64,000 nt of DNA from Methanomicrobiaceae archaeon (GTDB lineage Archaea; Halobacteriota; Methanomicrobia; Methanomicrobiales; Methanomicrobiaceae). The stretch covers positions 2,772-66,771 of the forward strand of contig JARVGI010000002.1 of the NCBI GenBank assembly GCA_029762625.1. Reading direction: 5' to 3'. Below are positions 2,934-52,953 of the stretch, piece by piece. The position numbers were made by a program, and so were the translations under genes. The first letter of the stretch is position 1. The number at the start of each line of letters is the position of its first letter. The notes below the pieces were generated by a model. It was not told the origin of the DNA, ran no database searches, and was given only the letters and a program-made list of their open reading frames with translations.

Positions 2934-5900
2934 TTACGCGTGTTTCGATTTCTCCTGGATGATCTCCTGCATACCGCTCGCTGAGTGGCTAACCTGCAAC
3001 GGGTCTTGACGAATTACGGGGTTGAGGTATGCTAACCCTAACCCACCCCACAACTCTCCCTGCGAAGGACCATCTACTTCAATCATTCTGCCCGGAATAA
3101 AGTCAAGATCTACCAAATGGACATAAGGAGACGCCTCCCAGTTCACTTCCTTCATACCTCTACGGCATTCCGGATTGAAGCTATCATGCATAACGACAAA
3201 AAGGGGTTTTTTTGGGACATAAGAGAGTACAGAGTCAAGATCCTTTTTTATACCCTCAGCAGAGTGATCACCATCAATTAGAATGAAATCAACGGGAATC
3301 TGCTCACGGTCCAACTCTTTTAATAATAGCGGCAGTATAATTGTTGAGGGCCCCGTTAAGAAACTGACATTGCTAAACCGCCTAAACTTATCAGGGATAC
3401 TCGGATCAATGTCGATGGAAAATGCCGTATGAGAGTATTGCGAAATCAGTGACAGGCTTCCGCCCATATAGGTTCCAATTTCTATGCTACACCTCGGTTT
3501 ATGGCGGGAGAGTAGCCCAGTCAAGGCTAACCTCTCTGAATGGTTCATCTGCCAATTCTCACATAAACAATCAGGATAAAGAATTTCCTCCCAACCGACT
3601 CCACCTTCCACTTGAGTGCTTTCTCTTTCAGTGGAATGGATGCTGGCGATCTCTTTTTTTGATCTTAATATGGATATGAATTCACATGCATATTCATCCC
3701 AAGTTTTTAATTTTCTTGAGACCGCCTGCTTAGAAAGCTCAAACAACAACTCCCTATCAGTAGCTAATCGATAAATTGACTCAGATAACGCCTGAACATC
3801 CAACACATCCGTCGTTAGGCAACCTCCCTCTTTGGCAAGTTCAGCCATCACCCCCTCCCGATAACAAATGCAGGGTCGGCCATGCCAGATACTCTCCAGG
3901 ATTGGCATTCCAAATCCTTCTACTATTGAAGGATACACAGTAAATGAAGCACTCGAATACAGCTCATGTAATTTCGAATCAGGGACAATCCCTAGCCATC
4001 GAATTCGAGGATTCTCTTTTGAAATCTTCTGAATCTCCTCGGCTATGTCAAAAGCTCCGGCATAACGGTTACCTACCAATGTTAACGTCCAGTTAACTTC
4101 AGGATGCTCTTTTTGCAGTAAAAGGCATGCTTGAATGAGTTTCCTATGGTTCTTCCTCGGTTCTAATGTTGAAACACATATTATGTTAATTGCATCCAAT
4201 TTTAAATTCAGATCAACTTGGCTCCTCTCAAATCCGCCAAATTCCCCAGGAAGTAGATTGGATATAACAGAAAAGCCCATAATATTCTGTCCTTTCCAAT
4301 AATTTTGAAGACATTGAGACGAGTATTCTGAAATGGGAATTGCCACATCACATTCCGCTAATCCATTCATATAATTGCTGTGGTTATCTCTTATTGCACC
4401 GTCTTTACAAAACTCCGGATAAAAAACCGGAATAGCATCATAAAAAATTGCGGCTAAGCGAAGGCCTTCCGCTCTCGCAAAACGGCGAGTTTCTTTCCCA
4501 CGGAGTTCATCGATCGTTTCTGAAAAAACCAACCATTTATCAAAATATCTGTTATTTTTCAAAAATTCTGACAAAGATAATTTAAATCCATCCGGCGATT
4601 TTCTGCACTTCTGTGTGAGAACAGGCCCGTTGAATTGACTCAATTGATTAAATTCTGAATCAGTTGGGAAAAAATACTGCTGACTTGTTGGATCCCAAAC
4701 GACAAACTGTACTTGTGCATGGTTCTGTAATTCCCTACAAAGTCTGCGTGTAACCCGAATAACTCCGGAATTGGCAGGATCTTTTACAGCGTTCGTAACG
4801 TCAACAAATATCAATAAATTATTTTGATCGAGGAACCCTTTTTTACTATCAATTTTCACAAATATTTCAGCAACATCAGAAATGACACGCTTCCATGTAA
4901 AATATTCTTTAAAGTTATTAATGGCATTATTTTTAGTTTCTAAATCCAAATCTGTCCCACTTAATATTTTTTTCGCCTTTGCCGCCATTTCACCATTATC
5001 ATTACATAGATACCAGGGATGAATAACAACTTCAGGATGTGCACCCTTATTTAACACCAAAACAGGACTATTTAACCATTGCATTTCAGCGAGGGGCAAG
5101 TTGAAACCTTCCCATAATGAGGTTGAAATCCCTAAATCAACATTTTCCATTAAATAAGATAATTCAGTATCGTCTGGATAACCAATAGGAAATATCACAT
5201 TCTGTAAATCAGGAGGTATATAGACGGTTGAAGGGTCGCTCAAAATAAATAGCACACAATTTGGAGCTTCGACCGTTATTTTTCGCATTACATCAAAAAC
5301 AGCTTCAGAATTCTTGTAGCAATCTGGTTCCCACCGACCCAAATTGAGAATACAACGCTTTCCATTATTCTTTACCGATTCAAATGAAGCAATGATTTTC
5401 GATTTCGTTTGAGTATCGCTCTTTTGCCAGATTTTAAAATCTAAATGATCTGCGCCTAATAATACTTTGAAAATAGGAACATTATAATTTGTATCAACTT
5501 TACTCTGTGTATCAGCAATAAAATCACTTATAGCAATAATCGCGGTTGCTTCGCGTAAATATTTTTTCCTCAGTTCCCGTAGTTTTTGTTGAGTTATAAG
5601 CAACCCATTCGAATAACCCTCTAACGGCACGGCACCACAATCAAAAAACACAGCGTGGACACCCATTTTCCGAAACAATGGTATTGATGAAAAGAAAGGC
5701 CATCCCCCAATTAACGCAATATCTGGTTTATTAGAATCATCAAACCACTCATTCCAATTATCCTTGAGCCATCTTTCAGTATGCTCATTCGCATTTAAAT
5801 AATCCTGGGGCGCTTCTGGAATATTGATAATATTATCCGCAAAAGACTCCAAAACCTCACGATCATATTTATTTGCAATAATGGATATAGTATGGCCAAA

Positions 5901-47052: not shown

Positions 47053-49242
47053 TCAGGGCATTTTGTAATGTTTTCGAAGGAAATCACTGATTTTCTTTGA
47101 TTCCAGCCACCCGATATCCAGCTGCTTGATAATCGCATCTATCTCCGCCGCCTGCGATACGACTTTCTCGGCAAGAGGCCCTCCCTCGAGATCGACCATT
47201 CCCACGATAGCCTGCAGCGGGTTCCTGATGTGATCGTTGAGGATGGCGAACTGCTCCATGTTCTTCTCGATCTGGTCGAGCGCTTCCCTCCGGATGCGTT
47301 CCACTTCTTTCCTCTCCCCGATATCCCGGGCGACCCCCACGAGGCCTATTGGCCTTCGCTCACTGTCCCGTAAATAGGAGACCTTTGTCTCGACCCAGAC
47401 CGGTGAACCGTCGCTCCTGCTGCATTCAAGTTCCAGGACGTTGTTTGTCTCATCATGGTCCCCGCAGTCGTCCGCACGGGAGCATTGTTCAAGGAGAACC
47501 CGCCGGATGTTCTCCACCGCGCTCTCCGACAGGAACAGATCGATGCTGTTTGCCAGGATCTCTTCCGTGGTGTAGCCGAGCAGGGGGAGGACGGAGGGGC
47601 TGACATAGGTGAACCGGAGACCGAGGTCCATGGTCCAGATGACGTCCTTTGCATTCTCGGCAATGATACGGTACCACTCCTCCTTTTCCCTCAATCCCTC
47701 CTCGGCACGCCTGCGATCGGTGATGTCCATGAGGGAGACGACGCTTCGCGCGGTCCCGGGTATCAGCGAGACAGTGATAAAGACGGACCGGACCCTCCCC
47801 TTCGCGTCCACAAGGTTTGCCTCATAGGATCGCGGCGCCTGGTCCGGGGAATGGCGGCGCAGCAGATGGTAGCGGGTCACCTTTCCCAGATCTTCACCCT
47901 CAAAGAGTTTTTTATAGCCCTTGCTCCCCTCGAGTTCGGCCTGCGTGTACCCGAACATGCGTTCGAATTCCGCGTTGGCGAGGAGGACCGATCCGTCCTC
48001 CTCGACGATCATGGTCGCCGTCCCCGTCGTCTCGAAGATCGCCCGGTAGAGCTGCCTTGATTGGAGCAGTTTCCCCTCGGATTCCTTTCTGCCGGTGATA
48101 TCTGTGATCATGCCGAGGAGGGCGCGTTCTCCTTCGTAGGGAATGAACTGCCCCGAGAATATGGCATCAAGACGGTGACCGTCCTTTGCAAGGAGGGTGC
48201 ACTCCACCGCGCGGGCGCACAGGCAGTCGCCCGTCTCTTCGAACACCGCCATCGCACCGGCGTCCTCCGGCGCGAGCAGGTCCTGGAAGGCAAATGACGG
48301 GGCGCAGAGTTCATCCTGACTGTATCCAAGGATTTTTTCGCATTGCCGGTTGGCATAGACGACCTTTCCCCGGTGGTTGACCAGGACCATGTTGGGTGCA
48401 TGCTCGAGGAGCATGCGTGCACGCTCCATATCCCCGCGGCCTGCGCGCCGATCGGTGATATCGGTGCCGGTGCAGAGGACGGACTCGACGGCACCGGTCG
48501 GTGATTGCCGGACGCTGCTCGTCCAGGCAATCCGGCGTGTACTGCCGTCCGCAACCGCATGCCGGCACTCGAACGTGGGACATACGTCGGGGACGGCAAG
48601 GATGCCGGCGATCCGTGCGCAGAAGTCTTCATCCGGATCCCCGCCGCCCTGACAGATGGTCCCCACGTGAAAGCCGCCGGGGGTATCGCGCAGGCCAAAC
48701 AGCACCCTGCCGTACTCGTTGACAAAGAGGATATACCCCTGTCGATCGATCCTGATAACGATGCTGCGCGCATCCTCGACAAGTGTGCGATAGTGCGCTT
48801 CGTTGCGTCTCAGGCGGGCATTTTCCACGGACAGGCGCATGACCTCGTCCCGGAGGTCCGCACCTTTGCCCTCCACCGGCGATGCATGCGCCCCGATCAG
48901 GGCATTGTGACGGTTCCGGTGGTTTTTCAGGCTCTGTGCATCGACGCCGAAGAGTTCGAATGTTCCCATTTCCTCGAGCATGGCGCCCGCGCGGTCAAGG
49001 AGAAAGGAACCGTGGTTGTCCAGCATCATCACGCACTCGGGCGATCCTTCCACAAAGATGACTGCGGTAAGGCCCACATCATGTGCCGCGGTGGCGAGAG
49101 CAATGCCGTTGAAGTTCTCATCGAGGGCCATGGCAACCAGATCCCGGAAGCAGAACACACCCTCGAATGTCGAATTATGGATAACATCAGAAAAAATCGA
49201 CCCGAATCTGGTGCTTTCAAGGACGTGCATGGCGAGGGGCAT
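47053..49242 (-). CDS. Multi-PAS sensor with ATPase-less DHp-like end
   Basis: 729 residues, no membrane helices. Residues 1-115 form an unrecognised domain (FRDLVAMALDENFNGIALAT, DNHGSFLLDRAGAMLEEMG). A short coil then leads to four PAS domains (about 150-265, 275-385, 400-515, 530-645). The protein ends with the same 75-residue module as the genes at 21,684 and 51,185: QIEKNMEQFAILNDHIRNPL, DLEGG, EIDAIIKQLDIGWLES, FLRKHY. No HATPase follows. The last-but-one PAS is close in sequence to the second PAS of the 21,684 protein. A cytoplasmic signal sensor; output unknown. Confidence 0.82.
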   Translation of the reverse strand: MPLAMHVLESTRFGSIFSDVIHNSTFEGVFCFRDLVAMALDENFNGIALATAAHDVGLTAVIFVEGSPECVMMLDNHGSFLLDRAGAMLEEMGTFELFGVDAQSLKNHRNRHNALIGAHASPVEGKGADLRDEVMRLSVENARLRRNEAHYRTLVEDARSIVIRIDRQGYILFVNEYGRVLFGLRDTPGGFHVGTICQGGGDPDEDFCARIAGILAVPDVCPTFECRHAVADGSTRRIAWTSSVRQSPTGAVESVLCTGTDITDRRAGRGDMERARMLLEHAPNMVLVNHRGKVVYANRQCEKILGYSQDELCAPSFAFQDLLAPEDAGAMAVFEETGDCLCARAVECTLLAKDGHRLDAIFSGQFIPYEGERALLGMITDITGRKESEGKLLQSRQLYRAIFETTGTATMIVEEDGSVLLANAEFERMFGYTQAELEGSKGYKKLFEGEDLGKVTRYHLLRRHSPDQAPRSYEANLVDAKGRVRSVFITVSLIPGTARSVVSLMDITDRRRAEEGLREKEEWYRIIAENAKDVIWTMDLGLRFTYVSPSVLPLLGYTTEEILANSIDLFLSESAVENIRRVLLEQCSRADDCGDHDETNNVLELECSRSDGSPVWVETKVSYLRDSERRPIGLVGVARDIGERKEVERIRREALDQIEKNMEQFAILNDHIRNPLQAIVGMVDLEGGPLAEKVVSQAAEIDAIIKQLDIGWLESKKISDFLRKHYKMP

Positions 49243-49350: not shown

Positions 49351-49363
49351 GCCATATATAAGG
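49351..49363 (-). promoter_or_regulatory. TATA box of multi-PAS sensor gene
   Basis: Minus-strand CCTTATATATGGC. It predicts a start near 49,330 and a leader of nearly 90 nt before the ATG at 49,242. The dyad at 49,391-49,420 lies 27 nt upstream of it. Confidence 0.5.
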
Positions 49364-49390
49364 CTTTTTTTCGGTTTTTAGGGCAAAATC

Positions 49391-49420
49391 CAGTGTTTTT
49401 GGAGAGATCCAACACTCCGG
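49391..49420 (+). promoter_or_regulatory. 30-bp dyad, copy 1 (putative operator)
   Basis: CAGT-GTTT-TTGGA-GAGA-TCCAA-CACT-CCGG. The inner palindrome TTGGA-N4-TCCAA is perfect and the left outer CAGT arm is present; the right outer arm is not conserved. Together with the four preceding bases it shares AATCCAGTG-N3-TTGGA-N4-TCCAA with copy 3, at identical spacing. Confidence 0.65.
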
Positions 49421-49428
49421 GGAAAAAT

Positions 49429-49458
49429 CAGTACCTTTGGAGATATTCAACCGGATTG
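49429..49458 (+). promoter_or_regulatory. 30-bp dyad, copy 2 (putative operator)
   Basis: CAGT-ACCT-TTGGA-GATA-TTCAA-CCGG-ATTG: same layout as copy 3 with one mismatch in each right arm. It ends 15 nt before the TATA-like box of the UbiA gene. Confidence 0.65.
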
Positions 49459-49473
49459 TACCAATTCGATCGG

Positions 49474-49485
49474 TTTGTAATATTA
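49474..49485 (+). promoter_or_regulatory. TATA-like box of UbiA gene
   Basis: TTTGTAATATTA is centred about 30 bp before the ATG at 49,510. No Shine-Dalgarno is evident before that ATG. Confidence 0.45.
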
Positions 49486-49509
49486 CCCTCTTGTGGAAAC
49501 ACGATAACT

Positions 49510-50346
49510 ATGAGCTCCTTTACATACCCGCAGAGGTATTTATCGAAAATCAATTTTCCCTTTATATGCTATAAATTTAATTATTTCCCGCTCATCTCTT
49601 CAATCGCCGTCGTAGCGCTGTCAGGCGCGCTTAAACTTCACTTTGCCTACGAATTTCTCGGGCGGACCTTACCCCTTCACTCCTTCATCGTTGCCATTCT
49701 CGTCACGTATGCAAGCTACGCGTTCGACCGGGGTGTGGGCTGTTCGGAAGACGAGGAGCGAAGCGGGCTGTTCAAATCCGCGCTTCTTGTATCAGCCGTC
49801 ATCGCCACCATCCTCTCTTTTGTGTTGTTTGCAAACATCCTCCTCGCCGTCCCCTATATCATCGGGTATCTCTATGCCCGCGGCATTGGCGGGCACCGGC
49901 TCAAAGGCGGCTACGGCGTGAAAAATGCCGTGGTCGCATTGACATGGGCCTCGACAATGCCCATTTTCCTCTGCGACCTCTCCTTTGCGGGCCTGCTCGT
50001 CTACCTCTTCTTTTTTTCAAAAAGCTTCGTGAACACCATCATCTACGATGTCAGGGATGCGGAACGCGACCGCGAGGCAGGGATCGCAACCATCCCGACG
50101 CTCATGTCGAAGACGAGGCTCCGGGCGTTGCTGATCCTCATCAGCGCCGCGACCCACTGCATCCTGATCGCCGCAGCACTGGGCGGGATGCTTGCCTGCG
50201 CGGACATCCTGGTACTGAGCGCCCTGCACTCGCTGGGGTATATCATCATCTATTCGGGCGCATGCAATGTCCTGCGGAATACCCTCGTGGACGGGGAATG
50301 GATCCTCTATACCCTTTACAGTAGTTTCCGGGCCGTGTTCCTGTAA
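49510..50346 (+). CDS. UbiA-family prenyltransferase
   Basis: 278 residues from MSSFTYPQRYLSKINFP; the open frame extends 39 codons upstream through the operator region and is not family-like. Seven to eight membrane helices. The second aspartate motif YDVRDAERDREAG is clear; the first is weaker (YASYAFDRGVGCSEDE). Members attach prenyl chains to lipids, quinones or haem. The substrate here is unknown. Its last 31 bp overlap the FilR1-like gene tail-to-tail. Confidence 0.82.
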   Translation: MSSFTYPQRYLSKINFPFICYKFNYFPLISSIAVVALSGALKLHFAYEFLGRTLPLHSFIVAILVTYASYAFDRGVGCSEDEERSGLFKSALLVSAVIATILSFVLFANILLAVPYIIGYLYARGIGGHRLKGGYGVKNAVVALTWASTMPIFLCDLSFAGLLVYLFFFSKSFVNTIIYDVRDAERDREAGIATIPTLMSKTRLRALLILISAATHCILIAAALGGMLACADILVLSALHSLGYIIIYSGACNVLRNTLVDGEWILYTLYSSFRAVFL

Positions 50347-51065
50347 TAGGCAACCATATCCCTCCCGAATTTCAGCGCCTCGGGAGAGGTGCAGATCAGG
50401 TCCCGGGTAAAGTCATAGCTGCCCGATTTATAGAAAAAGCCGATAGAAAGAAAAGTGTCCGTAACGGTGATCGCAATTTTCGGGGTCTGGTCGGTGATAT
50501 AGAGGTCGACGTTGTCCAGTGATTCGTCGAGATGGTCGGCCACGACCTCGCGGAGGTCTTCGGTAATCACGATGGAAATCGGAATATTGTGCTTCACCAG
50601 CTCTTCCAGCATCTGCGGGTAATCAGGAAAGAGCATCGGGGTAACGCCCTGGATTTCAGTGGATTGCTTGAGATAGCCGAAAAAGACCCGGTGGGGCTTG
50701 AGTACATCAGAGGGCTCCGATGCCACGAGTTCGAAGGAGGATAGCTCGTAGAGGCGGATATAGAAATCATCCGGAAAACCGATACTATGGTCGGGAAAGG
50801 CGCGGAAGATATGCTGGAGCGTGGTGATGCTCCTCATAAAATGCTCGAACACCATCAGGTATGCCCTGCCGCTGTCCGTGAGTACAATCTCCCCATCCTT
50901 ATCCATCGCGAACTCGACGTTTTTAAGATAATCCACGGTGAACGCAAATGTCGAAGCAGGAACGGAATCCTTGATCTCATCCTTTGTCCTGCCTTTGAGC
51001 AGGGCATCGAGCACTTCCATCCGCCTTCCGCTGGCGAAAATTTTCATGAAATTAGAAATTTCCAT
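50316..51065 (-). CDS. FilR1-type winged-helix regulator
   Basis: 249 residues. The N-terminal winged helix (about 1-75) reads MKIFASGRRMEVLDALLKG, SVPASTFAFTVDYLKNVEF, VLTDSGRAYL. The C-terminal domain (about 115-245, VTPMLFPDYPQMLEELVKHN, ITDQTPKIAITVTDTFLSIGFF) matches the domain of methanogenesis regulator FilR1, which works with the sensor kinase FilI in Methanothrix (Methanosaeta). It lacks a receiver domain. A dyad 55 bp before its start suggests self-regulation. The sensor gene at 51,185-52,660 is directly upstream on the same strand. Confidence 0.8.
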   Translation of the reverse strand: MEISNFMKIFASGRRMEVLDALLKGRTKDEIKDSVPASTFAFTVDYLKNVEFAMDKDGEIVLTDSGRAYLMVFEHFMRSITTLQHIFRAFPDHSIGFPDDFYIRLYELSSFELVASEPSDVLKPHRVFFGYLKQSTEIQGVTPMLFPDYPQMLEELVKHNIPISIVITEDLREVVADHLDESLDNVDLYITDQTPKIAITVTDTFLSIGFFYKSGSYDFTRDLICTSPEALKFGRDMVAYYRNTARKLL

Positions 51066-51094
51066 GGATGTCCCGTTTCATTGTGGGTGATTCA

Positions 51095-51105
51095 CCTTTT
51101 TTAAG
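51095..51105 (-). promoter_or_regulatory. TATA-like box of FilR1-like gene
   Basis: Minus-strand CTTAAAAAAGG, about 35 bp before the ATG at 51,065. The third dyad begins 15 nt upstream of it. Confidence 0.45.
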
Positions 51106-51120
51106 ATTGTTTAATGAATC

Positions 51121-51150
51121 CAGTGAGATTGGATTTTTCCAACGGTACTG
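51121..51150 (+). promoter_or_regulatory. 30-bp perfect dyad, copy 3 (putative operator)
   Basis: CAGT-GAGA-TTGGA-TTTT-TCCAA-CGGT-ACTG: both arm pairs are perfect inverted repeats. It lies between the end of the periplasmic-sensor gene and the FilR1-like gene, 15 nt upstream of the latter's TATA-like box, the same distance as copy 2 from the UbiA box. Confidence 0.7.
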
Positions 51151-51184: not shown

Positions 51185-52660
51185 TTATACGTCGGACCTG
51201 TTCCCATTGTTGTCCTTCTCCCGGGGATAATGGCGCTGCAGAAAGTCCCGGATCGCGCTGGATTCCAGCCAGCCCTGGTCGAGCCGGTTGATGATCGCGT
51301 CGATCTCGCCGGCCTGCAGAAAAATCTTCTCCGCCATTGGCCCTCCCTCGAGGTCGGCCAGCCCAACGATGGCCTGCAGGGGATTCCTGATGTGGTCGTT
51401 GAGGGTGGCCATCTGCTCCATGTTTTCCTCGATCTGTTCCAGCGCCTCGTGCTGGAGGACGGAGAGGTGCCGGAACTCCTCCTTGCTCCTGCGCAGCGCT
51501 TCCTCCGCCCGGCGGCGGCGGAGGATGTTGGCCGCAAGGATGACCACCGCAACGGCGAGCACGGCGATACCGGTGACCACGGCCCAGAAGACGTGCACGT
51601 TCACCGGAATGATCCCGGGGAGCTGGTTGATGAGCCTGCTGCCCTCGGGGAGCGCCGATGAATGGATGCCGAAGCGCATGAGCTGGTGGTTGTCAAAGAA
51701 CCAGTGGGTGGGCACCTCGGTGACCACCGGGATGGACGATGCCTCCTCGCCGTTGAGAATACGCTCAGTGAGTTCCGCGGCAATCCTTCCCTGGTCGGTG
51801 CCGTATGCCAGCTTTCCCCCCACAATGCCGCCTCCGAGGTAGAAATCCCACACCCCGTAGATGGGGACGCTGGACGCCGAGGAGACCAGTGCCATGCTCT
51901 TCTCGTGCTCGTAGTAGGTGCCGGCACCGTCGACGGTGTAGGTCATCATCAGGATCACGGTACCGTCGGGAAGATTGGCGACGGTTTCGAGGAGCGTGTC
52001 CATCGTCAGATCCTCGAGGAGGGTGATGCTCACCCGGTCCCGGTATTCGGGGAGGATTTCTGCAAGGCGGTGTTTGTTGGAGATACCGGATATCGACTGA
52101 TCATTGATGACGACCAGACGTGAAGTGCCGGGATGCAGGCGAAGCGCCGTATCAAGGGTGCTCCGGATATCATAGGCCTCCACCACGCCGGTACAGCCAT
52201 GCCATGTGTCGAGATCGCCGTTGTGGTAATCGGAAACCCCGCAGAACACGCAGGGGGTCATGGGGAAGAGGTCCTTGTGGCGTGCCTGCATGAACTGGTA
52301 AGCGCCGTCATCGGCGACAATCACCGCATCGAACCGGGTATCGGCATATTTGATCCGGTACAGCTCGTACATCTTCCGGGAATACCCGGGTTCCGATACG
52401 CGCGCCAGATCCATGTATTCAACAACGATGTCGACGTCCACGCCGCGGTTATCGAAGTACGACCCGATGCCCTCGTTGATACTATGCGTCCACACGTGCC
52501 CTTCATGATATGAATGGAGGACGAGGATTTTCTTCGGGGCCGCCTGCTCATCTGCGGAAACCGGGCATGCAGCCAGCAAGAGAAGGCAAATGATGACAGG
52601 CGCCCATCTGAAAATCGGCGCCCGCCAGGCACGCCGGCAATCCCCCTTCCCACGGTACAT
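51185..52660 (-). CDS. Periplasmic-binding-domain sensor with ATPase-less DHp-like end
   Basis: 491 residues from an ATG with GGAG 9 nt before it; an ATG 5 codons earlier is possible. Signal-like helix (ICLLLLAACPVSA), then an extracellular ABC-substrate-binding-like domain (about 40-345; KILVLHSYHEGHVWTHSIN, FDAVIVADDGAYQFMQ, VPIYGVWDFYLGGGIVGG). A membrane helix (VFWAVVTGIAVLAVAVVIL) and a coil lead to the conserved terminal module (LNDHIRNPLQ, DLEGG, LDQGWLES, FLQRHY). No ATPase domain. It may bind an external ligand and signal through the same output as the other two sensors; the FilR1-like gene is next. Confidence 0.82.
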   Translation of the reverse strand: MYRGKGDCRRAWRAPIFRWAPVIICLLLLAACPVSADEQAAPKKILVLHSYHEGHVWTHSINEGIGSYFDNRGVDVDIVVEYMDLARVSEPGYSRKMYELYRIKYADTRFDAVIVADDGAYQFMQARHKDLFPMTPCVFCGVSDYHNGDLDTWHGCTGVVEAYDIRSTLDTALRLHPGTSRLVVINDQSISGISNKHRLAEILPEYRDRVSITLLEDLTMDTLLETVANLPDGTVILMMTYTVDGAGTYYEHEKSMALVSSASSVPIYGVWDFYLGGGIVGGKLAYGTDQGRIAAELTERILNGEEASSIPVVTEVPTHWFFDNHQLMRFGIHSSALPEGSRLINQLPGIIPVNVHVFWAVVTGIAVLAVAVVILAANILRRRRAEEALRRSKEEFRHLSVLQHEALEQIEENMEQMATLNDHIRNPLQAIVGLADLEGGPMAEKIFLQAGEIDAIINRLDQGWLESSAIRDFLQRHYPREKDNNGNRSDV

Positions 52661-52953
52661 AATCCCTCGCTCCATAAAAGTCAGCAAAAATAATCATGCT
52701 CTTTACTGCAACCGCACCCTGATGATATTCGTGCGGTATCGTCGACACCGGCACTCTATAGATTAAATTGACCGCGGTAATAACCTTTGTGAAACAATCC
52801 ACCTTTTCTACTTTTAATAAATTTGATAATAAATCTTAATAGGGCTCAGAATAGAATATTGCGGCGGGTAGCCCTGCTATACAGGGCATGGCGGCGAATG
52901 TGTGAAAATTCAAAAATGGATACCTGGAGGTAAGATCATATGCTTCTCATGCA

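Follow-up and report, generated by a model that had tools for sequence, protein, structure and literature searches.

A conserved array of 19-bp-spaced palindromic boxes, the probable operator of a FilR1-like regulator, upstream of UbiA-type prenyltransferase genes in methanogens

Genes of the sensor/regulator locus

The locus lies in a 64,000-nucleotide stretch of Methanomicrobiaceae DNA, referred to here as the window. It encodes a multi-PAS sensor (47053..49242, minus strand), a UbiA-type prenyltransferase (49510..50346, plus strand), a FilR1-like regulator (50316..51065, minus strand) and a second sensor (51185..52687, minus strand). The multi-PAS sensor gene is transcribed away from the box array described below, and the UbiA and FilR1-like genes are convergent.

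The FilR1-like protein (249 aa) is the candidate reader of the array and combines an N-terminal winged HTH with a long helix and a FilR1_middle domain of PLD-like fold; PF08350 matches residues 123-243 with 93.9 bits against a gathering cut-off of 27. The middle domain stands at the end of the protein, and Pfam gave no Response_reg match, consistent with the lack of a C-terminal REC domain. No Pfam HTH family passed an E-value of 0.001, and neither PF01978 nor PF11495 was found at E<=0.001; the winged HTH is instead evident from the predicted structure (helices 13-23, 28-34 and 37-49, wing strands 53-62). In the AlphaFold model (pLDDT 83.8) the winged HTH, the long helix and a further domain are distinct, and a Foldseek search placed members of the TrmBL2/TrmB group at the top (5box, E 9e-9; 3qph, E 6.5e-8; probability 1.0), with alignments of TM about 0.4 and rmsd 16-21 that presumably reflect differing domain orientations. 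Phospholipase-D-type proteins followed next in the fold search, so that the C-terminal domain looks PLD-like. When the FilR1 alignment was searched against PDB sequences, no match was returned.

The window UbiA resembles NF010117 (the PRK13591 equivalog), although its profile matches fall below the curated cut-offs both for that family (131.6 bits; cut-off 238) and for Pfam UbiA (26.4 bits; cut-off 34.2); the UbiA partner of a distant clade (L127) matches NF010117 with 393 bits. The same convergent UbiA/FilR1-like pair was present in all 23 Methanosarcinaceae loci inspected (L164-L186) and in distant Methanomicrobiales loci (L118-L129), which suggests an old module. Since the gene is widespread in Methanosarcinaceae, a role in making methanophenazine was considered and set aside; Methanomicrobiales are not known to make this compound, and among the several UbiA genes listed in PMC6315138 this one is not assigned. 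Methanosarcina acetivorans carries this UbiA family.

Both sensors end in a common C-terminal segment (ILNDHIRNPLQAIVG...; 67% identity) that resembles a kinase H-box. In the second sensor this HisKA-like segment scores below cut-off, and by inspection the N-terminal part resembles an ABC-type solute-binding protein. Pfam detected no ATPase domain after the H-box-like segment of either sensor (no HATPase_c match in the multi-PAS sensor), and both may be phospho-acceptors or dependent on a partner kinase.

The box array and its promoters

The intergenic DNA on either side of the UbiA/FilR1-like pair had initially been annotated as carrying three copies of a 30-bp dyad. All three lie where that annotation placed them: the copy at 51121-51150 is perfect, as claimed, and that at 49429-49458 has two mismatches, one in each right arm, also as claimed. 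The copy at 49391-49420, described as half-conserved, is indeed imperfect but better than this term implies, with only two mismatches, both in the outer right arm. The distances given to TATA-like boxes (15, 15 and 27 nt) are correct if those boxes are read as TTTGTAATA, CTTAAAAAAG and TATATA. The 30-bp dyad itself has to be replaced as the unit by tandem 11-bp palindromes with a 19-bp period: each unit consists of a palindromic box, CARTNNNAYTG, and a linker of ~8 bp. The first two dyad copies are offset by 38 bp (2 × 19) and belong to a single five-box array (49391-49477), with further in-register boxes at 49410, 49448 and 49467 that had been missed.

In this array, box 1 (CAGTGTTTTTG; 49391..49401) and box 2 (CAACACTCCGG; 49410..49420) form the left and right halves of the first dyad copy, and box 3 (CAGTACCTTTG; 49429..49439) and box 4 (CAACCGGATTG; 49448..49458) those of the second. 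Box 5 (CGATCGGTTTG; 49467..49477) directly abuts the UbiA TATA-like element TAATATT (49478..49484, plus strand) and overlaps the expected BRE position. About 32 nt separate this element from the UbiA start codon (ATG, 49510), a distance that suggests a leaderless mRNA and marks the element as the TATA box. At the other end, the array reaches the TATA of the multi-PAS sensor (CATATATAAGG on the plus strand; 49353..49363, minus strand), which is conserved at this position in two loci of the window's genus and is replaced by TATAAATGG in Methanoculleus-type loci. A degenerate box 0 (CGGTTTTTAGG; 49372..49382; in-phase score 6.6 with a matrix from other genera) keeps the 19-bp register and adjoins the sensor-side TATA, beginning 8 bp from it; in Methanoculleus-type loci this position is occupied by an in-phase CGGTTTYKCCG. 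The five boxes take up the DNA between these two TATA elements.

Boxes were also identified upstream of the FilR1-like gene, at 51140..51150 (minus strand CAGTACCGTTG) and at 51121..51131 (minus strand CAATCTCACTG; conserved in the relatives G066 and G111), followed in register by a weak third box (minus strand AAACAATCTTA; 51102..51112) that overlaps the FilR1-like promoter and has similar sequence in the same two genomes. With a matrix trained outside the window's genus, the 30-mers beginning at 51121, 49429, 49448 and 49391 rank first to fourth of the ~64,000 window positions; those from 51102 (13.1 bits), 49410 and 49467 rank 6, 8 and 12. One window match to the box matrix, at 4541-4570 (18.3 bits; AT-rich), lies inside a coding ORF and was taken as chance.

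Specificity, conservation and further targets

Dinucleotide-shuffled versions of the window gave a mean of 0.01 dyad matches at <=3 mismatches, and none of 100 shuffles reached three. In the organism's own genome (2.2 Mb) the dyad occurs at four places at the same threshold, and the reversed-pattern control at none, so that random occurrence, one of the outcomes that would have told against the initial annotation, does not describe its distribution. The fourth place is a perfect dyad outside the window and 24 kb away (C21:75540-75569), between a tandem-HTH gene and a stand-alone REC-only (Response_reg) gene and upstream of the latter. A profile search of the genome returned no further credible site, the next best (C26:80424) having an E-value of 0.4 and not being credited. 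Cognate box arrays are present in this genome at the FilR1-like gene, the sensor gene and the REC-only gene, with two to three boxes before the FilR1-like gene and two to three before the stand-alone response-regulator gene.

Upstream regions of UbiA from 18 loci in several genera were anchored on TG[T/G/A]AATATT and stepped back in 19-bp increments. All 18 regions (mostly Methanoculleus) carry the array, the equivalent of box 5 is the last box in every one of them, and both the 11-bp box with 8-bp linker and the TAATATT-like element with its ~32-nt distance to the UbiA ATG are kept in most. An off-register step occurs inside the array in a few loci (e.g., G068, G108, and G080). Methanoculleus-type loci have four boxes plus box 0 and the window's genus five plus box 0; the spacing between the sensor and UbiA TATA elements in the latter is one 19-bp unit longer than in most Methanoculleus-type loci. 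In scans with leave-one-genus-out matrices, the UbiA upstream region held the best-scoring position of the locus in 18 of 19 cases, the exception being the window's own locus, where the top score was at the FilR1 promoter site; the next-best sites lay mostly at 19-bp offsets, including in a genome that was in no training set (G115).

The periodicity is also apparent from a pattern-free autocorrelation of UbiA upstream DNA, for which one locus per genus was used. In the window's clade, peaks were found at 19 bp (z 8.1) and 38 bp (z 6.8), in a distant clade with the same gene pair at 18-19 bp (z 6.2 and 5.3), and in five Methanosarcinaceae loci at 19 bp (z 4.6); the last peak is the weakest of the three and comes from few independent loci of AT-rich DNA with a secondary peak at 21. 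None of 200 shuffles reached the 19-bp value in any of the three sets. Across Methanomicrobiales, the array arrangement is kept together with the FilR1-UbiA pair, and the proposal that the dyad serves a sensor/regulator locus as a conserved regulatory element is supported by its non-random occurrence genome-wide and its retention upstream of UbiA orthologues. The expectation of dyads at the other orthologous genes of the locus holds in part: UbiA is the core conserved target, and the copy at the FilR1 promoter was found only in the window's genus.

In relatives, signalling genes dominate the array targets. Arrays precede a REC gene in G103 (L131), where the last box again abuts a TATA-like element, a GAF kinase gene and a multi-PAS HTH gene in G080 (L075 and L076, respectively), a Yip1-domain gene in G111 (L132) and possibly a DUF1616 gene in G099 (L077). 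In other genera (G138, G014, and G190), genes for REC-domain proteins occur close to the UbiA-FilR1 pair as well.

Reader of the array, sign of regulation and known regulators

Across 199 Methanomicrobiales genomes, with the dyad called at <=2 mismatches, a FilR1 orthologue was present in 10 of the 11 dyad genomes as against 11 of the 188 others (Fisher p=1.7e-10; genus-collapsed p=1e-3); the reversed pattern matched in six genomes, none with a FilR1 orthologue. The match in the sole dyad genome without an orthologue (G177) falls inside a PAS-kinase coding ORF and is attributed to chance. In most orthologue genomes that have no dyad at two mismatches, the matrix still found the array; the locus of G150 is truncated by a contig end, and G120 has no UbiA gene. 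The latter represents a natural loss case, with a 46%-identical FilR1-like gene (L070), no UbiA partner and no recognisable array nearby. Because the array is conserved across methanogens wherever the regulator gene adjoins, the FilR1-like protein, already named as the obvious binder in the initial annotation, is its probable reader and the best candidate on prediction.

We consider it probable that the array is the operator of the adjacent FilR1-like regulator, whose dimers would bind cooperatively, recruit TBP/TFB to switch UbiA on, and feed back on its own gene as well as on those of the sensor and the response regulator. In this scheme, dimers with a winged HTH, a long joining helix and a TrmB-like fold would occupy neighbouring boxes side by side; with a box touching the weak UbiA TATA/BRE, the protein could help to bring in TBP/TFB; and the sensor, response-regulator and regulator genes would be adjusted as well, forming a feedback circuit. 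Activation at UbiA is plausibly favoured because the boxes abut weak TATA elements; the sign of regulation may differ between sites. In the window's genus, the array before the response-regulator gene comes after a conserved TTTTTATAC (L005 7571-7625), unlike at UbiA, so that the dyad at this REC-only gene may sit at the transcription start or beyond it. This promoter may therefore be repressed, dual action is possible, and the term activator would not apply uniformly.

The same arrangement lends some weight to a possible but less likely reading in which the FilR1-like protein acts mainly as a repressor that blocks BRE/TATA or elongation until a signal releases it: at the response-regulator gene the array follows a conserved TATA and is close to where transcription is expected to start, at UbiA the BRE position is overlapped by the last box, and TrmBL1 and Tgr repress from downstream sites and activate from upstream ones (PMC4706686, PMC4158304). 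Against general repression, the boxes lie upstream of, rather than over, the TATA in the 18 anchored UbiA loci and at the REC (G103), GAF kinase (G080) and Yip1-domain (G111) genes, the UbiA TATA is weak, as expected of an activated promoter, and, in a reporter assay, the FilR1 of Methanosaeta harundinacea increased expression from the promoters that it targets (PMC3991700).

That another regulator reads the array, be it a global factor from another part of the genome or the tandem-HTH protein whose gene adjoins that of the response regulator, with FilR1 no more than a neighbour, appears improbable. FilR1 and UbiA are nearly always linked, so that co-occurrence cannot separate regulator from neighbour; other HTH proteins are present (e.g., L005 7654-8349); and FilR1 without an array in G120, together with the restriction of the FilR1-gene array to the window's genus, counts against FilR1 as the reader. 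Yet the sites are confined to genomes with a FilR1 orthologue and also occur at the FilR1 promoter in the window's genus, and beyond that genus no other array that was examined has the tandem-HTH gene close by. Moreover, in the distant FilR1 clade both the presumed recognition-helix segment (TATGMLPQIKIL vs STFAFTVDYLK) and the boxes (YAAYNNNRTTR) differ, a pattern that co-evolution of the two would produce, although the comparison involves no more than two clades. It is very unlikely that the repeats are left over from tandem duplication or act as a structural promoter feature such as curved AT-rich DNA: 19-bp periodicity and AT-rich linkers could be so explained, but adjacent boxes vary freely in linker and centre while keeping their palindromic arms, these arms are found again, with 0-2 mismatches, at unlinked genes, and the register is held across genera despite strongly diverged flanks.

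Under the preferred reading of the array as a FilR1 operator, the initial annotation was partly right and too small in scale: the element is probably a conserved operator array, with the FilR1-like regulator as its reader and UbiA as its core target. As a more speculative extension, which we regard as doubtful, the FilR1-like protein could be a sequence-guided filament former resembling TrmBL2, with a fixed-length sheath on the 19-bp-phased array that bridges the two promoters and switches the divergent sensor/prenyltransferase pair as a unit; array length would then evolve by whole 19-bp units, and Methanomicrobiales and Methanosarcinaceae would share a conserved regulator-UbiA-array module.

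Regulators with a FilR1_middle domain occur widely among methanogens. In the literature searched, no operator is defined for any of them, and the array is the first cis-element that we find proposed for one, with a grammar of 11-bp 4-N3-4 palindromes, a 19-bp period and a box abutting the TATA; a search for 19-bp palindromic arrays in archaea likewise yielded nothing useful. The conserved target, a UbiA-type prenyltransferase, is common to Methanomicrobiales and Methanosarcinaceae, so that the prediction can be tested in the genetically tractable M. acetivorans.

One of the closest parallels is the FilI/FilR1/FilR2 system of Methanosaeta (Methanothrix) harundinacea, with which the window protein shares FilR1_middle and an N-terminal wHTH. 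In M. harundinacea, FilR1 binds the filI-filR2 promoter as well as its own, and it raised reporter expression in Escherichia coli (PMC3991700); FilR2 is REC-only (PMC5847659). The targets predicted here from the arrays likewise include, besides the regulator's gene, one for a sensor and one for a REC-only protein. The systems differ in that the window protein lacks a REC domain at its C-terminus and in their targets (UbiA as conserved core here, methanogenesis operons there); the searched text of PMC3991700 defines no DNA motif for M. harundinacea FilR1. In lacking REC, the window protein resembles MsrC and MsrX of M. acetivorans, which are described as HTH + DUF1724 proteins (PMC11784639). 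MsrA/B/D/E activate methyltransferase operons (cited in PMC11218639), and no operators of Msr regulators were found in the literature searched. HdrR was considered as a possible relative and not retained, as the text of the paper describing it mentions neither DUF1724 nor FilR (PMC11218639).

In fold, the best matches are TrmBL2 and TrmB of Thermococcales (5box, 3qph), and the TrmB recognition sequence TACT-N3-AGTA shares its 4-N3-4 geometry with the window boxes (PMC4158304), whereas the box sequence differs and the FilR1-like protein matches neither TrmB-family Pfam model. TrmBL2 was co-crystallised with a 19-bp TGM; its dimers oligomerise into tetramers, whose paired HTH domains occupy neighbouring grooves along about two turns of DNA, and into cooperative filaments (PMC4877046). 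Compared with the single site (TGM) or the non-specific coating by TrmBL2, the arrays described here consist of two to six sequence-specified units, and they offer a natural system for asking how a TrmB-like fold moves from binding single sites to forming ordered polymers along DNA.
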